Shown: positions 43,004 to 54,991 of the stretch, one piece after another
Numbering within the stretch: position 1 is the first letter of the stretch
Layout of the letters: every line of letters starts with the position of its first letter
Assembly (NCBI GenBank): GCA_024278175.1
Contig: JAJRTS010000007.1
Coordinates: 1-55,436 of the forward strand
Direction: 5' to 3'
Source: Gemmatimonadales bacterium
Lineage (GTDB): Bacteria > Gemmatimonadota > Glassbacteria > GWA2-58-10
DNA length: 55,436 bases
Notes under the pieces: model-generated
Database searches by the model: none
What the model saw: the letters and a program-made list of their open reading frames with translations, nothing else
What the model was told of the DNA's origin: nothing
Program-made: the position numbers and the translations under genes

Positions 43004-45496
43004 TCAGAAGTCCTCGAAGTCCTCATCGTCCATGGGGATTATCAATTCCGGCTCTGCCGCATTTGTTACTGTAGACTTGGCGCCACCGCCGCCATTGTCC
43101 GGTTTCACTATCCTCTTGATCCGGTTTTTCGGCCCTTTGGCCGGGGCCTGCCTGGAGAAATCAAGGCGAGGAACTTCCTTTTCGGCCGCAGCGGTACCCC
43201 GGGCACCAGCGGATCCGTCCGCTGTCAGCATGAACTCGGACACCAGGCGCTTGAGCTCTTCAGCCTGATAGTTCAGATTGTCGGCCTGGCCGTTAAGCTC
43301 CTCGGACTGGCTGTTGAGCTGCTCGGCGGCACTGGCGCTTTCTTCGCTGCTGGCGGCATTTTGCTGAGTGACCTTGTCCATCTCGGCCACAGCGGCACTG
43401 ATCTGGTCGATTCCCTGGGCCTGTTCCCGAGCGGCTGCCGCGATTTCCGCCACCAGATCGTTCACGTTGCCGCAGCCTCCCGCGATCTCCTGGAGGACCT
43501 TGGCCACTTCATTAGTGATTTTAACACCATTCCCGGCGTTTTCGACCGATTCCTCTATCATTTCGGCTGTATTTCTCGCCGCCTCGGCACTGCGCTGGGC
43601 CAGGTTTCGCACCTCCTCGGCCACCACCGCGAATCCTTTGCCGGCCTCACCGGCACGAGCCGCCTCAACCGCTGCATTCAGGGCCAGCAAGTTGGTCTGG
43701 AAAGCGATCTCGTCGATAGTTTTCACGATCTTCGCAGTTTCATCAGATGAGCTTTTAATCCTGCTGATCGCCGCGCTCATCTGCTCCATGGCCTGGTTGC
43801 CATCGTCCGCTGATTTACGGGCTTCCTGCGAAAGAGCATTAGCCTGATTTGCACTATCCGCGCTCTGCTTGCTCACGGAAGCCATCTGTTCCAGGCCCGA
43901 GGAGACTTCCTCAAGCGAACTGGCCTGCACACTGGCGCCCTGGGCCAGTTCCTGGCTACCGGTCGAGATCTGGCCGCTGGCCGAGCTCACCTGATTGGAT
44001 GCATCTTTCACCTGTGTCACTGAAGAACCGACCCGTTCAACTGTTTCGGACACCTGGCCCAATGCCTTATCCAGAGCATTGATAGTGGTGTTTATATTGT
44101 TTTTCAGGTCAGCAAACTGGCCTTTGTATTCCCCTTCAACGGATTTGGTGAGGTCCTTGCCCGCGGCCGCTTCGAGTACCTTAGAGGACTCTCTGATCGG
44201 TGCGACTATTGCATCGAGCAAATCGTTAACTCCACCGATTATTCTCCCGAAATCGCCCTTATGCCCGGCAAGATCAGCCCTGACATCGAGTTTTCCTTCC
44301 AGTGAAGCTTTAGTAAGCATTCCGAGATCTGAATTCACTGCCTGCAAAGCAGTCACCATCCGGCGGAAAGCTTCCGCGAGCTGACCGATTTCATCCTGCT
44401 GGCGGATATTAATTTCCTGGCTGAGGTCTCCCTCCGCCATTACCCGCGCAACAGCCGTTACCTTACTTATACCGGCAACGGTGATCCGCACCGTGGTTAC
44501 ACCCAAGACTACGCTTATGCCTAGAATTAACAGAAACACAACAGCCAAAACCGTCATCCTGGATTTCATCTCTCCCATCTTGCGCTGCGTCTGGGCCTGC
44601 AGGTTAGCCGAAAGCTTATCTTCAACCTTTTTAAGCAGATTAATCTTTTGAGTAATACTGCTAAACCAATCGTTGGCATCCACGCCAAAAGACCGGGAAG
44701 TTTTAAGGTTAACGTCAAATGCTACGTTGCGCATGCGGTTAACTTCATCAACCGCGGGCCCCTGGAGGGTGGCCTGAAAAAAGTCGTTGTCTTCCTTCGA
44801 CGCCAGGGTCGTGAAGACCGACATGTAAGATTTTTGTTCTACTACCAACCCGACAGCTGTTATAAACTGCTGGGTATTAAACCTGCCCTGCGCAAAAACA
44901 CTGCTTAAAACCGCCCGCTCCAGCCCTGCCCGTTCCTTGGCCTGGAGAAAATTGAATCCGGCGATAATATTGGTGCTGACCTCCGCATCCCTGCTGAGCT
45001 TTCCCATAAAACCGATGACATCCAACAGTTTTTTGTTGGCGGAGGTATAATATGCGACTTCCTCTTGTGTTGAAATCCGCAGGGATGATATCTGCTGGCG
45101 TTTTTCAGAAAGATCTTCCGAGAAAGCGATTGCCGCGTCCAACTTGGCTGCAAGCTCTTTATCGAACATATCCGTATCAAATTCTTTCAGCCCTGCTTGT
45201 AAAGCCCTGTACTTCTCATCAGTGTTCTGATGTTGAGCCTTAAGTTCAGGACCGAACTTTTTTCCCTTGCTGCCCAGGTATCCTGCCGACATACCGCGTT
45301 CCTTTTGCAGCTCATGCACCAATCCACCGATACTGCTCGAAAGGATGGATAACTGGTTTATCGCTTCATATGAGCGCAGGTCCCGGTATTGCTCGGTAAA
45401 CCTTTGTCCCGAGACAAGCAGAAATCCCAGGAAAGGAATGAGTACGATAAAAATGATCTTGGATTTCATCGAAAGGTTTTTGATAAAAGTAGTCAT
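43004..45496 (-). CDS. Chemoreceptor with NIT sensor domain
   Basis: An 830-aa methyl-accepting chemotaxis protein. TM1 (about 12-30), a periplasmic NIT domain ([15 protein letters not shown] near 61, about 45-300), TM2 (about 315-337), HAMP and a second HAMP-like stretch, then the signalling hairpin with tip [23 protein letters not shown] domains are linked to nitrate/nitrite sensing. The C terminus ends [10 protein letters not shown], almost the same as the neighbouring receptor. AAGGAG precedes the ATG. No che genes are present in the window, so its signalling cluster lies elsewhere. Confidence 0.9.
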
Positions 45497-46025
45497 GCTA
45501 AATCTCCTTGCGTGTAAGCCATCCGTTTTTTTGCGGCGCCACTACCAGTTGGCCGTTTTGCTTTTCGGAGTTCCTGTTTTCCCGTAAGAGAAAATCCCGG
45601 AACCCTCATTTCTAATTCGCTGGCTTCGCAGCATTGGCCGCCACTCGTTTTTTCGAAGTTGAATCCGTTCAGTGCCGCCTTGATTTATTCAATAGAGCCC
45701 CCTGTGTTTACGTAAACCGCGAAAGCATCCCTGATTCCCCCAGGTCGGATCGGGAGCCTGAGCACCATGAGCCAAAGATCCTCCCGCGGGCGCTACTTGA
45801 ATACCGGATTCAACAAATTCGTCTCCGGGGGGAGAAAATGATCCTTCATCACTGCCCCTGCCGCCCCCATGCCCTTTCCCTTTATTTGCATTGTTTATAT
45901 TTATTGCGATCCACATTCACGCTGCCGGTTTATATTCAGCTCATCATTCAGGAGAGGGTTAATTGGGGAGCGGGGGGGAGGTCTTCCCTGTCCCCCCCCC
46001 CCAACTCCCCACACGGGAATAATGA
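45497..46025. other. Spacer between two chemoreceptor genes
   Basis: I see no convincing gene here. A 75-aa minus-strand frame (45689-45916) is Gly/Pro-rich and lacks a ribosome site. The leader of the NIT receptor has structured-looking sequence near 45530-45590 that I could not assign to a known riboswitch. The left half has no clear promoter. Confidence 0.4.
45965..46010 (-). terminator. G/C-rich hairpin after the haem chemoreceptor
   Basis: GGGGAG followed by a G-tract at 45965-45980 faces a C-tract and CTCCCC at 45992-46010. It starts 16 bases beyond the receptor stop. There is no T-run, so it may act as a transcript-end stabiliser rather than an intrinsic terminator. Confidence 0.45.
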
Positions 46026-48230
46026 TCAGAAGTCCCCGAAATCCTCATCATCCATGGGGATGATCGATTCCGGATCCGCCGCCTTTGCCTGCACTGCCTC
46101 CGCACCATCGCCGCCGTTACCTGATTTCGCCATCACCTTGATCCGGTTTTTCTTCGGCTTGGCGGCCGGGGCCTGCCTGGCGAAATTAAGGTGATGGCCT
46201 TCCCTTTTAACCTCGGCGGTACGCCAGGCATTAGCTGATCCGGCTGCTGTGAGCTTGAACTCCTCGACCATCCTTCGCATCTCTTCGGCCTGGCCGTTGA
46301 GCTGCTCGGCCGCACTGGCGCTTTCCTCGCTGTTAGCTGCATTTTGTTGAGTAACCTTGTCCATCTCGGCCACGGAGTTGTTAACCAGCTCGATACCCTG
46401 TGACTGTTCGCCAACCGCGGCGGAGATTTCGGCCACCAGGTCGTTGACCTTCCCTGATCCTTCAAAAATCTCCGCCAGAATCTTAGCCACTTCCTCTGTA
46501 ATCTGCACACCATCCTCGGCATTCCTGACTGATTCCTCAATCATCGCCGCCGTGTTTTTGGCCGCTTCCGCACTGCGCTGGGCCAGGTTGCGCACCTCCT
46601 CGGCCACCACGGCAAAGCCTTTACCGGCCTCTCCCGCGCGGGCGGCCTCCACCGCGGCATTCAGGGCCAGCAAGTTAGTCTGGAAGGCGATCTCATCAAT
46701 GGTCTTGATAATCTTGGCCGTCTCGTCGCTTGAAGACTTGATCCTGTCAATAGACTCGCTCATCCGAACCATCGCCTCGTTGCCCTGCTCGGCGGATTTG
46801 CGGGCATCACCCGAAAGAGATTTGGCCTGGTTGGCGTTGTCCGCGTTCTGCCTGGTCATCGAGGCCATCTCCTCCAGGCTGCTGGAGACTTCCTCCAGCG
46901 AACTGGCCTGCTCGCTGGCGCCCTGGGCCAGAGACTGGCTTCCGCTGGAAACCTGACCGCTGGCTGCGCTTACCTGCTCAACCGCTCCGCCTACCTGGGT
47001 TAAAGCTTCATCCAGTGCGCCGATAGTGGCGTTGATGTTGTCCTTAAGATCACCAAGCTGGCCCTTGTAGTTCCCTTCGACTCTCCTGGTCAGATCTTTT
47101 CCGGCAGCGGACTCAAGTACTTTCGCCCCCTCCTGGATCGGCGCCACAACCGCGTCGAGCAGCTCATTGATGCCGCCGATGACCTTGCCGTAATCTCCTT
47201 CGTGCCTGGAGGCATCGGCCCTGGTGTCAAGCCGGCCCTCCAGTGCCGCCTGAGTAAGGGAGCCTACTTCGGAATTCATCTCTTTCAGGCTCTGAACCAT
47301 ATTTGTCATGGATTGGCCCAGGATATCCTTGTCCGAAGCTACTTTTACCTCCACAGCCAGATTCCCCCCGGCAATCTGCTCCGCGGCACCGGCCTTATCT
47401 TTCAAAGCCTCCGTCATGGTGCGGAAAGAATCCGCCAGACGGCCGACCTCGTCCTGTTGATCAATGTCGACATTTTGATTAAGGTCGCCCACCGCGATGG
47501 CTTTTGCCACATCAGTGACCTTCTTCAGCGGATTTGTGATGGTGTGTACCACGTAGAGCAGAGCAGCGCCGATCAGCAGCACGACCAAAACCGAGGTGAG
47601 AATGATGGAATTCCTGGCCCTGGCGACGGTGGCTTTTGTTTGGTCCAGCGAACTGATAATGTGGAAGGCCCCGTGAATCTGGCCGACTTTCCAGCCTTCC
47701 TTGATTCCTCCGAGCGGGTCAGGTGAGCCTTTGGGATCGCCGTGGCAGGTAAGACACCCCTCCGTAAGGGTGATTGCCCGGAAGTAATGGATATTGTCCT
47801 CGTCCTCGATTATTTGCTCCGTCATCTGGCCCTGCATCATTGCCTTCAGTACAGCGGTTTCGAGACTGTCGGGGGTGTTATTCGGATTGCGAGGCTGGAA
47901 CTTGGGCACCCTGAACACATAACCGGCTTCCTCCGCCTTTTTGGCGGCAACATTTATGGCCGTCACAATCGGAACGGCTTCAAGCAAGGCCTCGCCGGAG
48001 AGCTCTTCGAACGGTTTGACCACACCCATGGCGAGTTTCTTGGTCATCTCCTCCCTGGCGCTTTCGGCTGCAAGCACCACCGCTTTGCTTTTTTCCTCCA
48101 CGGCACGGACAGCTTCGGTCCTGATGTCCCTGATGTGCTGGACAGCGGATAACACTGAGATAAGTATCAGGCCCAGCAGGCTGATAGATAATAATTTCCA
48201 TCTGATGCCGAGATTCTTGAAGCTGGCCAT
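46026..48230 (-). CDS. Chemoreceptor with c-haem Tll0287-like (DUF3365) sensor
   Basis: A chemotaxis receptor of about 734 aa. TM1 (about 12-31), a periplasmic domain (about 35-205) of the DUF3365/Tll0287-like type that contains CLTCH at 159-163, so it should bind a c-type haem, then TM2 (about 208-228), HAMP domains and a signalling hairpin with the usual [17 protein letters not shown] tip. It probably senses redox state or a gas. The end reads [13 protein letters not shown] at 48230 with GGAGGG upstream is chosen; the frame runs 50 codons further upstream without family-like sequence. It resembles its neighbour in the signalling half but has a different sensor. Confidence 0.9.
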
Positions 48231-48828
48231 CTGAACCCTCCATGCCGGCTGGCGGCGGAACATTTGAACTGGGAAAACAACTAAAAAAACATCAATTACC
48301 CTGAGAAATAACAATTTCGTCCAGGGACAGTATCTCCTCGCGTTCTGGTTGAAGGCCTGCGCCATCGGCAGGGCCAACACGGTTCTGAATTGTGCTCAAT
48401 CCGCTCGTGAAAAACCTTGAAAGCAATTACTAAGCCAACTCCAGCATGACGCATAACTTATTGATATTGTGTCAGATAGTAAAATTGGGGAGCTGATGAT
48501 TCAGCCCTGAAATCAAAAATGCTGTGATTCGAACAGCATGTCCTGAAAAAGTGTTCGATATGGCACATGATTCTCTCATAGTTAGGTGGCTCAGTTTGTT
48601 CGGGGCGGGTCGACAGGCGCGGCTCAACAGAAATTTCATCTTTGTTAAGTCGCAATCCGCCGGATGAGATAAGCTGCCCGATGGACCGTATGGGGGATGG
48701 ACTGAAAAAGAGGGGTATTATTGATATTCTCGTTGGCGGTTGCCCTTGCGCTCCATGAGATGGAGACGTTCAAGCTCAGCCGCTAACACCTGAGGGACAG
48801 GAGTGTTATCTTGATTAGCCGGAGCATA
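48231..48828. other. Intergenic stretch upstream of the haem chemoreceptor
   Basis: No intact gene is seen. On the minus strand directly after the receiver stop at 48829, the same frame continues for about 36 codons to REYQ and a TAA, possibly a former C-terminal end. The rest up to the chemoreceptor start has no recognised promoter or RNA. Confidence 0.4.
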
Positions 48829-49215
48829 TCAGTTGCCCTGGTGAGCACTGTCCTGATTCATTTCATCTTCAATCTTTGCAAGTGTATCCAATAACTGCCT
48901 GATATTCAGCGGCTTGGTTAAACATGCATTTGCGCTTTCACTTGCGGATAATTCAGCCTTACTTAACGCAGAGTTTCCTGTTGTAATAAGCACGCATGCG
49001 TTTGGATTGTGCGCCCTGACCGCTTCCATAACCTCAACCCCACTCATCCGCGGCATCTGCAAATCCGTGATAACAACATCGTATCTTCCCCGCATGAATT
49101 CGTCCACGGCGCCCTGGGGGTCGCTGAACTCTTTGGACCGATGGCCTCTTATGCTCAGAAAAATACTCAGACAGCGCAGGATCTCCGGCTCGTCATCGAT
49201 CAACAGAACATTCAC
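48829..49215 (-). CDS. Single-domain receiver
   Basis: A 128-aa response regulator starting MNVLLIDDEPE, with phosphoacceptor in VVITDLQMPRMSG, Thr in LITTGNS and Lys in CLTKPLNIR. No output domain. The start is GTG with AAGGAA about nine bases before it. A good promoter with a flanking dyad lies about 250 bases upstream. It sits between the second sigma-54 activator and the chemoreceptors. In-frame codons after its stop suggest that it was once longer. Confidence 0.85.
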   Translation of the reverse strand: MNVLLIDDEPEILRCLSIFLSIRGHRSKEFSDPQGAVDEFMRGRYDVVITDLQMPRMSGVEVMEAVRAHNPNACVLITTGNSALSKAELSASESANACLTKPLNIRQLLDTLAKIEDEMNQDSAHQGN

Positions 49216-49437
49216 GGCACTTATTCCTTAATTCAAAAAGTTCAAATGGCGTCTTCGGAGAGAGAACCCGGCAAAAACCAAGCTCTATACTTTTTCAGTC
49301 AGCTGATACGTCAAGGAATGAATGTGGACTGCGTTCTTTATATACAAAAAGAATACCATAATCGTGGAGGCGGCTTAATAGCGGGCTATTCTTTGGGCAA
49401 TTAAGAAGTTACGACATTGCGAAGGACAATATCAGAG

Positions 49438-49495
49438 TTGTTCGATTCCGGTCATTTGATCGATTTCATTATACAATTCCGAACAATCGATACAA
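49438..49495 (-). promoter_or_regulatory. Promoter with flanking dyad for the receiver gene
   Basis: On the minus strand TTGTAT (49495-49490) and a perfect TATAAT (49473-49468) are 16 bp apart. A 7-bp inverted repeat, TTGTTCG at 49438-49444 and CGAACAA at 49480-49486, brackets the -10 box and could be an operator. The predicted leader is about 250 bases. Confidence 0.5.
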
Positions 49496-49516
49496 GCGGA
49501 GCGTGAGATGGGGGAG

Positions 49517-50974
49517 TTAGAAATACTTTTTAATTCTTCTCTCCAGGCTGCTTCGGTTGATGCCCAGATAATCTGCTGTCCTGGTTTTAACACCGTTATG
49601 CATTGACAGGGCTTTTTCGATTATTATTTTCTCGACCTCCTCCATGTGAAAACGATCCGGAGGAAGAGCCTGCGATTTTAAATCCACATATAATCGTTGA
49701 GACCTCGGTTCATCATCGGCAAGAGAAGGTTCAGTCTCAAGGAATCCTAAATGATCCGGCTTGAGCTCTATGTCGTCATACATAATAACCGCTCGTTCAA
49801 TTGCATTTTTCAACTCACGGATATTCCCCGGCCAGGAATGATCTTGCAGGACTTTCACCGCTTCCTTATGAATTGACTTAAACCGTTTCTTTTTCTGCTC
49901 AGAGAATTGCTGCAAAAACAGATGCGCCATCTGTCGGATAGTTTCCGGGACTTCCTGAAGAGTTGGAAGAGTTATCGTTACCACATTCAGCCGATAATAC
50001 AAATCTCTCCTGAATTTATTTTCTTTCACCATGTTTCTCAAGTTTCTGTTTGAAGCGCAGATCACCCGGGCTCTGAACTTATGTTTGATTAATCCTCCTA
50101 CCCGGTAATACTCCCTTTCCTCCAAGACTCGCAATAACTTAGGTTGCATTTCCAGCGGCATTTCCCCTATTTCATCAAGAAACAATGTCCCGTCCTCAGC
50201 CAATTCCAATTTCCCGGGTGATCCCTCCTTATGGGCTCCGCTAAACGCACCTCCCTCATATCCAAAAAGCTCGCTCTCGAATAAATGCGATGGAATAGCA
50301 GAACAGTTGATGGGCACAAAAGGTGTACAAACATCGCCTTTTCCGAAATGCACCAACCGGGCAATAATCTCTTTTCCCGTACCGGTTTCTCCCTCGATCA
50401 GAACCGAAGCCGAGGGGTCTTTGTGAAACTGCTCGGCCTGCTCCACACACACTTGCATCGGCTTTGAAAAGATGCCGACTTCACCTATTCCGACAATTTC
50501 CGCATAAGCTTTTTGAAGCTCCTGAAGCCTCGATTTGATCTGTTTTGAGAAGCTGGAAACTTTTTGCTCGAAGCGATAGTTTAATTCGTAGTTCTCCCGC
50601 AACAAAGCCTGATGCTCGGCAACCCGCTCGACAATTGCTTTAAGATCCGCCAATTCGATAGGTTTCAGCAGGTAATCGTACGCTCCCCCCTGTAAAGCCT
50701 CGATGGCCGATTGCATGTCACCATAACCTGTGATCAAAACGATGTCCGCGTTTTTCCCCTTAGGCAATACCTTCAGCTCATTCAACAACCTGATCCCGTC
50801 CATTCCCGGCATGTGAATATCACTCAGTACCATTGGGAAAGGAGATCGTTTGAATTTCTCGATTGCATCCTGAGCATTGTCGCAGGTCGTTACTTGATGA
50901 CCAAGCCGCTTTTCAAAAAAGCAACCAACGCTTTCCAATATCATTTTCTCATCATCTACAAGCAGTATGCGCAC
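49517..50974 (-). CDS. NtrC-type sigma-54 response regulator (GAFSGA variant)
   Basis: A 485-aa activator. Receiver with phosphoacceptor in MVLSDIHMPGMDG, a coiled linker, AAA+ domain with GETGTGKE and Walker B LDEIGEM, and a Fis-type helix-turn-helix at the C terminus (TRTADYLGINRSSLERR). The sigma-54-contact loop reads GAFSGA instead of GAFTGA, a conservative change. The start is GTG with AGGGAA upstream. A near-consensus sigma-70 promoter lies about 290 bases before it. No kinase is adjacent, so its partner is unknown. Confidence 0.92.
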   Translation of the reverse strand: MRILLVDDEKMILESVGCFFEKRLGHQVTTCDNAQDAIEKFKRSPFPMVLSDIHMPGMDGIRLLNELKVLPKGKNADIVLITGYGDMQSAIEALQGGAYDYLLKPIELADLKAIVERVAEHQALLRENYELNYRFEQKVSSFSKQIKSRLQELQKAYAEIVGIGEVGIFSKPMQVCVEQAEQFHKDPSASVLIEGETGTGKEIIARLVHFGKGDVCTPFVPINCSAIPSHLFESELFGYEGGAFSGAHKEGSPGKLELAEDGTLFLDEIGEMPLEMQPKLLRVLEEREYYRVGGLIKHKFRARVICASNRNLRNMVKENKFRRDLYYRLNVVTITLPTLQEVPETIRQMAHLFLQQFSEQKKKRFKSIHKEAVKVLQDHSWPGNIRELKNAIERAVIMYDDIELKPDHLGFLETEPSLADDEPRSQRLYVDLKSQALPPDRFHMEEVEKIIIEKALSMHNGVKTRTADYLGINRSSLERRIKKYF

Positions 50975-51267
50975 CGGTTGTTCCCTGCTGTTGTCCGGAA
51001 GTACTAAACAACCTCGTAGTCCATCCCGTTGATTTTCAGGAATCCCTCGCCACAGTAGCGATAGACACAGGCAGGCCCCTTACTCCAAACCAAGAGTTGC
51101 CGATATCAATCGCAACTGTAACCAGCGTTTAACGTTGGGTGGAAGATATGAACAGCTTGATTCCCGCCGGGACCCGCCAGATCGGGATTCTAAGAAGACG
51201 TCGTTTTATAGGCATGTCCTACTTTATTGCCTATTACTATCTCAGGAGATCATACCAACCCTTCATG
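50975..51267. other. Long leader of the second sigma-54 activator
   Basis: About 290 bases lie between the promoter and the activator start. Short minus-strand frames occur (for example one ending GEGFLKINGMDYEVV at a TAG near 51005), but none has a clear start or known family. I see no known riboswitch. Confidence 0.35.
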
Positions 51268-51296
51268 ATTATATACCATAATCGTTAATATTTCAA
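51268..51296 (-). promoter_or_regulatory. Sigma-70 promoter for the second sigma-54 activator
   Basis: The minus strand has TTGAAA (51296-51291), a 17-bp spacer and TATAAT (51273-51268), close to consensus. A start near 51261 is expected. Confidence 0.65.
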
Positions 51297-51331
51297 GTCA
51301 TCGGAGGTTTTTTTGCGGAAAATCGATCGCT

Positions 51332-51408
51332 GCGGGCGGGCGGCGCGCGCATATATGCGCGCAACCCGCGCGGTTGCCGGTGCGTAAGCACCGGCGCCGC
51401 CCGCCCGC
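51332..51408. repeat. 77-bp nested palindrome forming a perfect four-way junction
   Basis: An outer 13-bp stem (GCGGGCGGGCGGC at 51332-51344 against 51396-51408) encloses three hairpins with no linker bases: an 18-base perfect palindrome GCGCGCATATATGCGCGC (51345-51362), AACC/GGTT around a CGCGC loop (51363-51375), and GCCGGTGC/GCACCGGC around GTAA (51376-51395). Every base is paired or in a loop. It lies between the HD-GYP-like gene and the activator promoter. The class of element is unknown to me. Confidence 0.8.
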
Positions 51409-51598
51409 GAATGCCCGTGCTGTTATGCTAACATCAGCCGGTTGCGTGGCTTGCGGCATTTCATGGCCTGTGCAGTTCCGCTCTTCTTTGCGCCGGCACA
51501 CGTATCGGTGTAGACATTGCCAACAGCTTAAGCCTCTGTGGCCAGCTTTATGCTGTCAGAAAACATTGTGTAACGCACAGCCTTGCCCGGGACAGAAA

Positions 51599-52969
51599 TC
51601 AATCGGTCCCAGCTTCGGGCTCTTCGGGCTCGGGCTTTTTTCGATACACGTAAACAGTGGCAAGTATCGAATTGGTCTCTTGATATTTTTTTATTTTGTA
51701 AAGATCATCCTGCTGCACTTGATTGTCCTTTGACAGCAGCTTTTTACCATCAGCAAGAATCAGGTCTTGTGAAAGCACCATGCCCGGCCGCAGTTCCTTA
51801 AGATTGATTTCTACTATTTCCGATTCCTGCCTCCTTCGTTTCTCCTCGGTCAAGCACGTGGCAAGTACGGAGACGACGTCCGGATCAAAAAAACTTGGGC
51901 TGCGATCCTGCAAGTACCTTAACGCATCCGATGGTGTAGTGGACTCGAAACTTGAACTCAGATTGAGGAAAGTATCGTAGGCTTCCACTACGGCAATGAT
52001 CCTGGAAGCCAGGGGAATGTCCTCTCCCTTCAGATGCTCCGGGTACCCCTGACCGTTGAATAATTCCTGCATATGGCGCAAATAATTTGCCGCTTTGGTA
52101 AGATTAGGCACCAGTTTAAGGACCGCCTCTCCCCGCAGAGGGTTGTTTTGCAGCTTCTCCTTTTCCTCCGCGGTAAGAGAGTCTTTAGGCTTTTTAAAAA
52201 CCTCAGGATCGATCCCCACGTTCCCAATATTATGGAGGGACGCCGCCGCCTCGAGTTGAAAAAGATCCTCAGCGCTCATACCCTTGCGGATGCCGACCTC
52301 GTGACAGAGCATGGCTACCCGTTTGGAATGGTTCCCGACAACCTCGCTGTGCATTCCCGTAAGCTGCGCCATCACGCGAACCGAGATCAGGAAATTTTCC
52401 TCCAATTGCTTGTTCATCGCGGCAATCTCACGGGTGCGTTCCTCCACCCTGCTTTCAAGCTCGATTGCGATATCCTGCAACAGTTTATACTGGTCATCCG
52501 CCAGAGTTTTGAGCTCTTCCTTTTCTTTTACCAGTTTGTATTGAGCGATTGCCTGCCTGATCGCCAAGCGAAGTTCGATGTCGTTCCAGGGCTTGGCGAG
52601 AAACCGGCTGACAGCCCCTTTGTTGATTGCTTCTATGGCCGCCTGGACATCCGCATAGCCGGTCAATATTATCCGAACCGTATCCGGGGAAATCTTTTGC
52701 GCGAATTGCATCAGCTGCGTACCTGTCGAAGTCGGCATCCGCTGATCAGATACAATGACGGCGTATTGATTTGTTTTTAGCAGTTGCAACGCTTTTTCAG
52801 GAGAGGTTGTAGTGGACACCTCCACTTTTTCCTTTCGCAGCAGGCGTTTTAAGGCCTGAAGAACATTTTCTTCGTCGTCGACAAGAAGAATTTTGATTTT
52901 TTGGGGTTGCCCACTTCCCTTTTCAAGAGCGAACTCTTCGCCTTGAGGCTCCGCGCCGAGCTTTTCCAT
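51599..52969 (-). CDS. Receiver fused to a degenerate HD-GYP domain
   Basis: A 456-aa response regulator. N-terminal extension, receiver (about 25-145, Asp75 in VSDQRMPT, RFLAKPW), coiled coil (about 150-190), then an HD-GYP domain (about 195-380). The GYP loop is intact (NGQGYPEHLKGEDIP), but the HD pair reads HN (SLHNIGN, 246-247) and the later metal residues also differ (RHMQE, AVVEAYD). It may bind c-di-GMP or a partner without cleaving it. The C-terminal 75 residues resemble the usual HD-GYP tail. ATG at 52969. It follows the HDOD gene by 20 bp. Confidence 0.87.
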   Translation of the reverse strand: MEKLGAEPQGEEFALEKGSGQPQKIKILLVDDEENVLQALKRLLRKEKVEVSTTTSPEKALQLLKTNQYAVIVSDQRMPTSTGTQLMQFAQKISPDTVRIILTGYADVQAAIEAINKGAVSRFLAKPWNDIELRLAIRQAIAQYKLVKEKEELKTLADDQYKLLQDIAIELESRVEERTREIAAMNKQLEENFLISVRVMAQLTGMHSEVVGNHSKRVAMLCHEVGIRKGMSAEDLFQLEAAASLHNIGNVGIDPEVFKKPKDSLTAEEKEKLQNNPLRGEAVLKLVPNLTKAANYLRHMQELFNGQGYPEHLKGEDIPLASRIIAVVEAYDTFLNLSSSFESTTPSDALRYLQDRSPSFFDPDVVSVLATCLTEEKRRRQESEIVEINLKELRPGMVLSQDLILADGKKLLSKDNQVQQDDLYKIKKYQETNSILATVYVYRKKPEPEEPEAGTD

Positions 52970-52989
52970 GGAAATATCTTCCCGTTTGT

Positions 52990-54192
52990 TTAATAATGAG
53001 CCAATTTACTCTTCAACCAGGATCTCAGGCTGGGAATGTGCATGGAAGCCTTCCCTTCCGTGTGGCTTTCTTTTTTCCACTCAAGCAAGTCCAGGACAGG
53101 TACTCCCCGTTGTTCCAGCTCTTCGATTGATGATGGTGAAATTGATTTATCGGCGATAACCGCCACCAGTCTGGTATCGCCATCGTGGGAGCGCTGGAAA
53201 TTAACAAGGGAATAACCCATGCTAAGCAATGACATGGCCAGGATTTCTCTTTCTCCGTCATCTTCCACTATTAACGCAATTGCCGGAGGTTTTGTTTTCT
53301 CCTCCTGAGTCAGCGTTTCCTTTGCCGAACCCATCTTCAGAAACGCCTCGGTCTTACTTACTTCCTCCGGCAGTGCAAGCAGAATCTGACGAAGGCCTTC
53401 TTTGGTTAACTTCTCGGAATCGACTATTTCCAGAAGAGTCCCCTCCACGTGGGAGTCTCCGGAAGAACCGATCTGTGCAATTTTGGCCATGCTGTTGCCT
53501 GCCTGGACCGCATAACACAAGACATCCTCTTCACCAACCGTTTGTTTTCGCTTCGGGGGCAGATGGTGCTCCGCTATTATCCGGCTCATCTTGGCGGGGA
53601 TATTCCAGTGTTCGCAAAGCACAAAACCTACCTCGGCGTGATCCATTCCGAATGCTTCTTTTTCCAATTGATAAAGCCGTTTTTCCTGTGCTCTGTCGAT
53701 TTCCAGCAATAGTTCCCATTCCTCCCCGAAATTATTCATCAGGACCAGTTTGCCCATGTCGTGAAGCAAACCGGCCACAAACGCCTCTTCGGGCTCTGAT
53801 AATCCGGTTCTGGCCGTCATCATCCGCGCAGCACTGGCTACTGCCATGGAATGCCTCCAGATATCCTCGATAGGCAACGACGACGTCCGCTGCCGGGGCT
53901 GTAACCGGTCTAACACCGACATACCCAGAGCCAGGTTTTTGACACCCTGAAAACCAAGGATCATAATGGCCTGGGATACAGTGCCGACTGTGCGGGAAAG
54001 TCCGAAGAAGGATGAGTTTGCCACCCGCAGAATCCGGGCTGTAAGGCTTGAATCATTATGAATAATTATTGCCATTTCATTGGGATCGACTTCCGGATTG
54101 TCGGCCATGCGAATCACTTTCTCGACTGCGGCAGGCAACGGCGGCAAGGATCTCACATTTTCAATGATTTGATCGATCCTCTCAGCGGCCAC
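52990..54192 (-). CDS. HDOD-domain signalling protein
   Basis: A protein of about 400 aa. The HDOD domain (about 10-215) shows the typical LPPLPAAVEKVIRM start, SLTARILRVANSSFFG and the HDMGKLVLMNNF helix. The C-terminal third (about 290-400) is a poorly defined alpha/beta stretch that could be a degenerate receiver. HDOD proteins act in signalling and do not usually cleave c-di-GMP. The start is GTG at 54192 with GGAGG six bases upstream, better than a TTG at 54213. It overlaps the preceding receiver gene by 11 bases and belongs with its neighbours in one operon. Confidence 0.85.
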   Translation of the reverse strand: MAAERIDQIIENVRSLPPLPAAVEKVIRMADNPEVDPNEMAIIIHNDSSLTARILRVANSSFFGLSRTVGTVSQAIMILGFQGVKNLALGMSVLDRLQPRQRTSSLPIEDIWRHSMAVASAARMMTARTGLSEPEEAFVAGLLHDMGKLVLMNNFGEEWELLLEIDRAQEKRLYQLEKEAFGMDHAEVGFVLCEHWNIPAKMSRIIAEHHLPPKRKQTVGEEDVLCYAVQAGNSMAKIAQIGSSGDSHVEGTLLEIVDSEKLTKEGLRQILLALPEEVSKTEAFLKMGSAKETLTQEEKTKPPAIALIVEDDGEREILAMSLLSMGYSLVNFQRSHDGDTRLVAVIADKSISPSSIEELEQRGVPVLDLLEWKKESHTEGKASMHIPSLRSWLKSKLAHY

Positions 54193-54991
54193 TTTCAACC
54201 TCCAGCAGTACAAGACAACCCACGATCGATTTATATGATTTCAATGCTTCGAGATGCAGACTGACAGCCCGCTGCTGCAATTGAATGATAACCGGACCGT
54301 CAGGTTTAACTCCATCAAGACAATCTTTTACGGCCCTGATGGCTTTTTCAGGGAAAACATCCCGCAGTTCCACACCGGGCGGCAACGGGACCATCTTCGG
54401 AAAAAACCTGCCGGCCGCCTGGTTGGCAATCACTATCATACATTCATTGCTGACCCCGACAACAGGTAAGGGCAGTATTCCAAGGATCTGCTGCGAAAGT
54501 TCGAGCACCCTGGTGCGTTCATCAACTCTGTGCTCCAGAATTTTGTTCAAACGCTCCAGTTCCTCGTTCTTCCCCCGGATTTCGTCGATCAGCACCCGGT
54601 TTTCTGCAAGCAGGTCGTAATGCGACAGGCACTGCTGGATTGCTATCTTCAGTTCTTCGTCACTCCACGGTTTAGCGAAAAAGCGGTAGATTTCGCCCCT
54701 GTTTATCGCCTCGAACAAGACATTTACATTAGCGTAGCCCGAAAGAATGACCCGCACCGTATCCGGGTAGCTCTCTTTCACTTTCTGGAGGAACTCTACT
54801 CCTGTCATTTTGGGCATTCTCTGATCAGAGATCACCAGTTGCACCTTATGCGTTTCCAACAGGGCGAGTCCCTCTTCTCCACTGGAGGCCGTCAGCAAGT
54901 GATAATCCTCTTTACGGAGCAATCTTTTAAGCGCACTGAGAATGGAGACTTCATCGTCGACACACAGTACCTTTTTTTCATCTTCACTCAT
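54182..54991 (-). CDS. RpfG-type receiver with PAS-like domain
   Basis: A 269-aa response regulator. Receiver (about 1-125) with VDDE, phosphoacceptor in ISDQRMPKM and RFFAKPW; a coiled coil (about 130-165); and a C-terminal PAS-like region (about 170-265) with [14 protein letters not shown]. No DNA-binding or enzymatic output. GAGGAT lies seven bases before the ATG. Its start overlaps the stop of the broken histidine kinase (ATGA), which was probably its original partner. Confidence 0.85.

Follow-up and report, generated by a model that had tools for sequence, protein, structure and literature searches.

The dispersed structured repeats described so far in bacteria are, to our knowledge, mostly single hairpins or pairs of hairpins, and for uncultured Glassbacteria the repeat family added here is the first known to us. 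Terminal hairpins of the AAV type consist of an outer stem that encloses further hairpins and occur in flip and flop orientations. REP and BIME repeats are palindromes tagged by GTAG and CGTC (PMC3733652; RepRanger, PMC12306157). They are single hairpins of 20-40 bp, GC-rich, extragenic and dispersed in hundreds of copies, are enriched downstream of stop codons, occur in both orientations and have a candidate role at mRNA 3′ ends. MITEs and the RU/ERIC-type sequences of enterobacteria are likewise small, non-coding, dispersed and foldable (PMC2229807, PMC10969869). In chloroplast genomes, stem-loop regions are known to have undergone similar inversions: the inverted repeats at chloroplast mRNA 3′ ends (discussed in PMC3123225) are intergenic stem-loops with conserved stems and a loop region recurrently inverted in place.

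Here, a 77-bp sequence at positions 51,332 to 51,408 of the window, which is the whole stretch of 55,436 nucleotides that was analysed, is described as one copy of a family of extragenic structured repeats that is restricted to a single lineage, one family of Glassbacteria, a group placed in the Gemmatimonadota by the literature (Candidatus Glassbacteria, PMC11596202). The sequence and coordinates of the element check out as described in an earlier note on this DNA, and the four-way junction without linkers proposed there was reproduced both by RNA folding (−66.6 kcal/mol, z = −5.7) and by DNA folding (−43.4 kcal/mol, z = −6.0), with none of 200 shuffled 77-mers as stable as the real one. In both foldings the outer stem has 13 bp, arm 1 has 7 bp, arm 2 has 4 bp and arm 3 has 8 bp (Table 1). 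The view that the element is not a tRNA agrees with ARAGORN, which gave no tRNA or tmRNA match for the 77-mer, and neither the window copy nor its relatives matched any family among the Rfam covariance models. The element lies in a gap of 624 bp between two genes on the minus strand, and its placing within about 200 bp of the end of an HD-GYP-like gene was borne out by the distance to the stop codon, 190 bp. A dense signalling cluster occupies positions 43,004 to 54,991 of the window on the minus strand and holds two chemotaxis receptors, of which one contains a NIT domain, HD-GYP and HDOD proteins, and receiver-only and sigma-54 response regulators; no evidence was found that links the element to the adjoining signalling genes.

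Table 1. Parts of the 77-bp element and its neighbouring genes (positions in the window), and loci of the MITE in genome G005.
Feature	Position	Strand	Remark
Outer stem, 5′ half GCGGGCGGGCGGC	51332..51344	+	pairs with 51396-51408
Arm 1 hairpin GCGCGCA-TATA-TGCGCGC	51345..51362	+	family-wide strong sequence conservation
Arm 2 hairpin AACC-CGCGC-GGTT, variable arm	51363..51375	+	4 bp in this copy; relatives reach 11 bp or more
Arm 3 hairpin GCCGGTGC-GTAA-GCACCGGC	51376..51395	+	fold; double-sided changes among relatives
Outer stem, 3′ half GCCGCCCGCCCGC	51396..51408	+	pairs with 51332-51344
Response regulator, HD-GYP-type domain (NosR-family c-di-GMP phosphodiesterase)	51599..52969	-	transcriptionally upstream; stop 190 bp from element
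Sigma-54 activator response regulator	49517..50974	-	downstream gene; start 357 bp from element
MITE loci in G005	L061, L065, L093, L167, L169, L183, L185		

A plain DNA search revealed further copies in the window genome (G000) and in its sister species (G001), which form the same cross from differing stem sequences. A first covariance model, built on eight copies, gave matches in these two genomes, in G002 (Candidatus Glassbacteria bacterium RIFCSPLOWO2_12_FULL_58_11, of a related genus) and in G005, of another genus. A second model built on 49 copies gave higher counts, and among the matches listed there were about 8 copies in G000, 12 in G001, 25 in G002 and 13 in G005, the whole family amounting to some 60 related, dispersed intergenic copies. 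The second model found no copy in G003 and G004, members of the same family, and no copy was among the matches listed for 389 other genomes of the phylum, an absence that is not absolute because it rests on listed matches and strict filters. Viral contigs gave no match to the one pattern searched. Pattern matches in Proteobacteria, Actinobacteria and other groups look like chance similarity to arm 1, and five outside matches that scored with the model lacked the full cross when folded. Among open-licence papers, no cloverleaf-shaped dispersed bacterial repeat was found. The order of parts is constant among copies: an outer stem ending in GGC, arm 1, arm 2, arm 3 and the outer stem again. Arm 1 is usually GCGCGCAT/ATGCGCGC, arm 2 varies from 4 to 11 bp or more, and arm 3 is GCCGGTGC, GCCTGTGC, GCCTGCGC or GCCTGGGC with the respective complements. 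The GTAA loop of arm 3, rightly called GNRA-type in the window copy, is not a family trait because the loops vary freely.

In the alignment of 49 copies, 89% of cells were paired, compared with 81.5 ± 0.6% after shuffling and at most 57% in slid controls, and the equivalent of the outer stem was 96% paired. Double-sided changes numbered 95 versus 38 expected, as exemplified in arm 3 by CCGGTGC, CCTGTGC, CCTGCGC and CCTGGGC stems, and the covariation score exceeded that of all 500 shuffles and of the slid controls. Since paralogs are mixed in this alignment and arm 2 is poorly aligned, orthologous pairs provide the cleaner test. Seven of the eight G000 copies are present at the same locus in G001, inside regions about 73-82% identical; the window copy is the exception, as no G001 ortholog was found for its flanking DNA or for the neighbouring HDOD gene. 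The HDOD protein of the window cluster has a best match of only 35% identity in the sister species. The seven pairs offer 235 comparable base pairs, of which 221 (94%) were unchanged, 4 had changed on one side and were still paired, 3 had changed on both sides and 7 were broken, while 7 further base pairs fell in gaps. Unpaired positions differed in 60 of 139 cases (43%), and the intergenic flanks next to the orthologous elements mostly aligned poorly. The near-constancy of stem pairs and the change in loops indicate that the stems are constrained and the loops are not. Judged by this pattern, in which arms stay almost unchanged while loops and surroundings drift, the folded shape is probably functional. 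Template-switching palindrome correction as the sole source of covariation is disfavoured, since stem pairs would then drift as fast as loops, whereas 94% of the comparable pairs are unchanged. The earlier note had named genomic copies or compensatory changes, sought with a covariance model, as support for a functional element; both were found, which argues for a functional dispersed structured element and not a one-off.

All 57 copies examined lie clear of called genes. With approximate gene calls, 24 copies lie between tandem, 10 between convergent and 8 between divergent genes. The tandem copies are nearer to the upstream stop in 21 of 24 cases, with p = 3e-4, a value that is somewhat optimistic because some of them are orthologs of one another, and their median distance is 45 bp to the upstream stop versus 187 bp to the downstream start. 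Relative to the upstream gene, 12 of these copies are sense and 12 antisense, so strand preference is absent. The stop-proximal position and the very stable GC-rich stem could bring to mind an intrinsic transcription terminator of unusual shape, but this reading, already disfavoured, is barely conceivable: a T-tract is found on neither side (mean T content in 18 nt is 3.5 downstream versus 3.7 upstream in the 24 tandem copies), both orientations are used and the element is also present in divergent regions. Independent structured non-coding RNAs, or a cis-regulatory RNA such as a riboswitch or leader, would account for the strong covariation and for the fact that some copies precede a start codon by 37-60 bp. 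Such RNAs are nevertheless very improbable with no consistent orientation to genes (12:12), loops that are not conserved and no match in Rfam. A common regulon was rejected as well, since the adjoining genes are unrelated and include sugar hydrolases, transporters, oxidoreductases, cytochromes and a helicase.

The explanation we favour, tentatively and at somewhat less than an even chance, sees in the family a new, branched kind of REP-like extragenic repeat whose copies were kept because they work as a folded block where transcripts end. Its dispersal would have been that of a small mobile repeat, carried in G005 as MITE cargo (transposition is indicated in G005 only), and individual copies would then have been retained at transcript 3′ ends, where the compact cross would resist 3′-to-5′ exonucleases and read-through without a U-tract. 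Since the reverse complement folds into the same cross again, orientation would not matter. The stop-codon bias tips the balance towards an RNA role over a DNA cruciform, although selection against insertions close to promoters could also produce this bias. Two further observations speak against a barrier. About 8 copies are called divergent, where no 3′ UTR would be expected, among them the orthologous pair on G000 C59 and G001 C6, whose divergent arrangement is well supported in the window genome and its sister alike and counts against a role confined to 3′ UTRs. Conservation also extends beyond complementarity to the stem sequence itself, more than stability alone would require.

Two of the seven orthologous loci, C47/C10 and C7/C81, carry the element in opposite orientation in the two species, judged against the flanks. 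For the C47/C10 elements, 48 of 75 positions agree with the flanks aligned, and agreement rises to 92% on inversion. Single hairpins have flipped too, as seen in the arm-1 loops of C63/C23, TTGAAA and TTTCAA, which are reverse complements, and in G005, where exact reverse complements between copies occur at the tips of arm 3 (GACTCCAAGTC/GACTTGGAGTC and GACCCAAGTC/GACTTGGGTC) and of arm 2 (CGCAAGCG/CGCTTGCG). These flips suggest that the hairpins are, at least now and then, formed in DNA, and flips of whole unit and single arms would be natural evidence for crosses forming in living cells; alone they are no proof of function. With transcript-end retention as the preferred reading, they would originate from hairpin or cruciform formation at replication. 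AAV-type hairpins share the outer stem, the inner hairpins and the two orientations, but the resemblance is one of shape only; the Glassbacteria element is not at a replicon end and has neither a replication protein nor a viral context. The chloroplast stem-loops (discussed in PMC3123225) are single hairpins that form no multicopy family, whereas here flips affect the complete three-arm unit as well as single arms.

The flips bear further on the possibility that the element is a site acting in DNA, where a cruciform or single-stranded hairpin cross would be bound or processed by a structure-specific protein (candidates are gyrase, a nucleoid protein or a Holliday-junction binder) and serve as an architectural or recombination site. 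A cruciform role accounts at least as well as an RNA barrier for the absent strand preference, the copies between divergent genes and the conserved stem sequence, and the inverted loci, the flipped loops and the z-score of the DNA fold are consistent with it. No partner protein was found, however, the stop-codon bias is not obviously required by such a site, and the inversions could simply be a side effect of palindromic sequence, as in the chloroplast stem-loops (PMC3123225 and works cited there). We hold this explanation to be possible, if on the unlikely side. Bolder still, and decidedly unlikely, is a new multicopy class of DNA element whose functional form would be the extruded, Holliday-junction-like four-way junction, on which selection would act for both stem sequence and shape regardless of orientation, and which a structure-specific host protein would read; the element would itself undergo programmed or recurrent inversion.

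Mobility is most apparent in G005, where the cloverleaf is carried in an inverted-repeat MITE of ~207 bp with the ends CCCGGATTATTCATAAA/TTTCATGAATAATCCGGG, about 44 end-motif sites and a probable TA-type target. Copies of this MITE hold the cloverleaf or other stem-loops, or have shrunk to 68 bp, and no parent transposon or transposase was found in the stretches read. In two of them, L093 (G005:C4) and L171 (G005:C84), a clean deletion has removed all three hairpins together with most of the outer stem and left the junction GGGCGGCGGCTGAT, as though by slippage between GGCGGC repeats. Neither a terminal inverted repeat nor a target duplication was seen at the element in G000 and G001 or on inspection of the flanks in G002, and no association with a transposase was seen outside G005. 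Three G001 copies are absent from the matching G000 loci, one of which leaves an outer-stem remnant. On the strength of these comparisons, the family is one that has spread and been lost over time, yet in the window's genus the majority of copies are old. A selfish MITE- or REP-like element lacking host function, with hairpins serving its own transposition and copies surviving in intergenic gaps, would suit the dispersal to unrelated loci, the MITE of G005 with its inverted ends and its deletion derivatives without a cloverleaf, and the several copies present in only one of two sister species. We regard it as unlikely because dead copies should decay evenly, whereas seven of eight copies are old and position-stable, and their stems are much better conserved than loops and flanks; nor does it sit well with the missing terminal repeats, target duplications and transposases outside G005.

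The comparison with MITEs is thus divided: the cloverleaf of G005 sits within one, whereas in the window's genus and G002 no terminal inverted repeats beyond the element's own stem and no target duplications were seen, and the window's genus shows stable orthologous positions and conserved stems. Among the readings offered in the earlier note (a structured RNA, a recombination or replication site, a mobile palindromic repeat), the last describes the spread best, inside a MITE in one genus, and nothing ties the element to replication. Like REP and BIME sequences, the repeat is short, palindromic, extragenic and dispersed, but its copy number, in the tens, is below what is typical of them, its length is 77-100 bp, and it has three hairpins inside an outer stem in place of one. 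At 114 stem feet, GTAG and CGTC were seen 1-3 times per tag versus about 5.8 expected by chance, and RAYT-like genes did not adjoin the repeat in the genomes tested; with neither tag nor RAYT link, it therefore falls outside the REP definition (PMC3733652). A RAYT-driven REP was rejected: partial Y1_Tnp matches of RAYT size occur in G001, G002 and G004, and at five such loci, with flanks of about 1.5 kb, no element was found above noise. The genomes of the family also contain full-length Y1 transposases of the IS200 type. The description as far more ordered than a REP consequently holds for topology, while the genomic habits are REP-like. A conserved family of linker-free four-way junctions makes selection on branched DNA or RNA shape in intergenic regions testable.

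Some minor observations concern the surroundings of the copies. The window genome holds near full-length IS200-type Y1 transposases (G000:C62:48334-48693, C18:8620-8979 and C28:49-399), and fragments of such transposases are found at its contig ends. Synteny appears to break at the edges of elements, where diverged intergenic sequence stops alignments anyway. Finally, when G000:C74 (L136:3087-5329) is compared with G001:C27 (L143:5575-5586), an amidohydrolase-like gene is found on a 2.2-kb segment that directly adjoins the element in one species and is lacking in the other, the junction being about 10 bp from the element.
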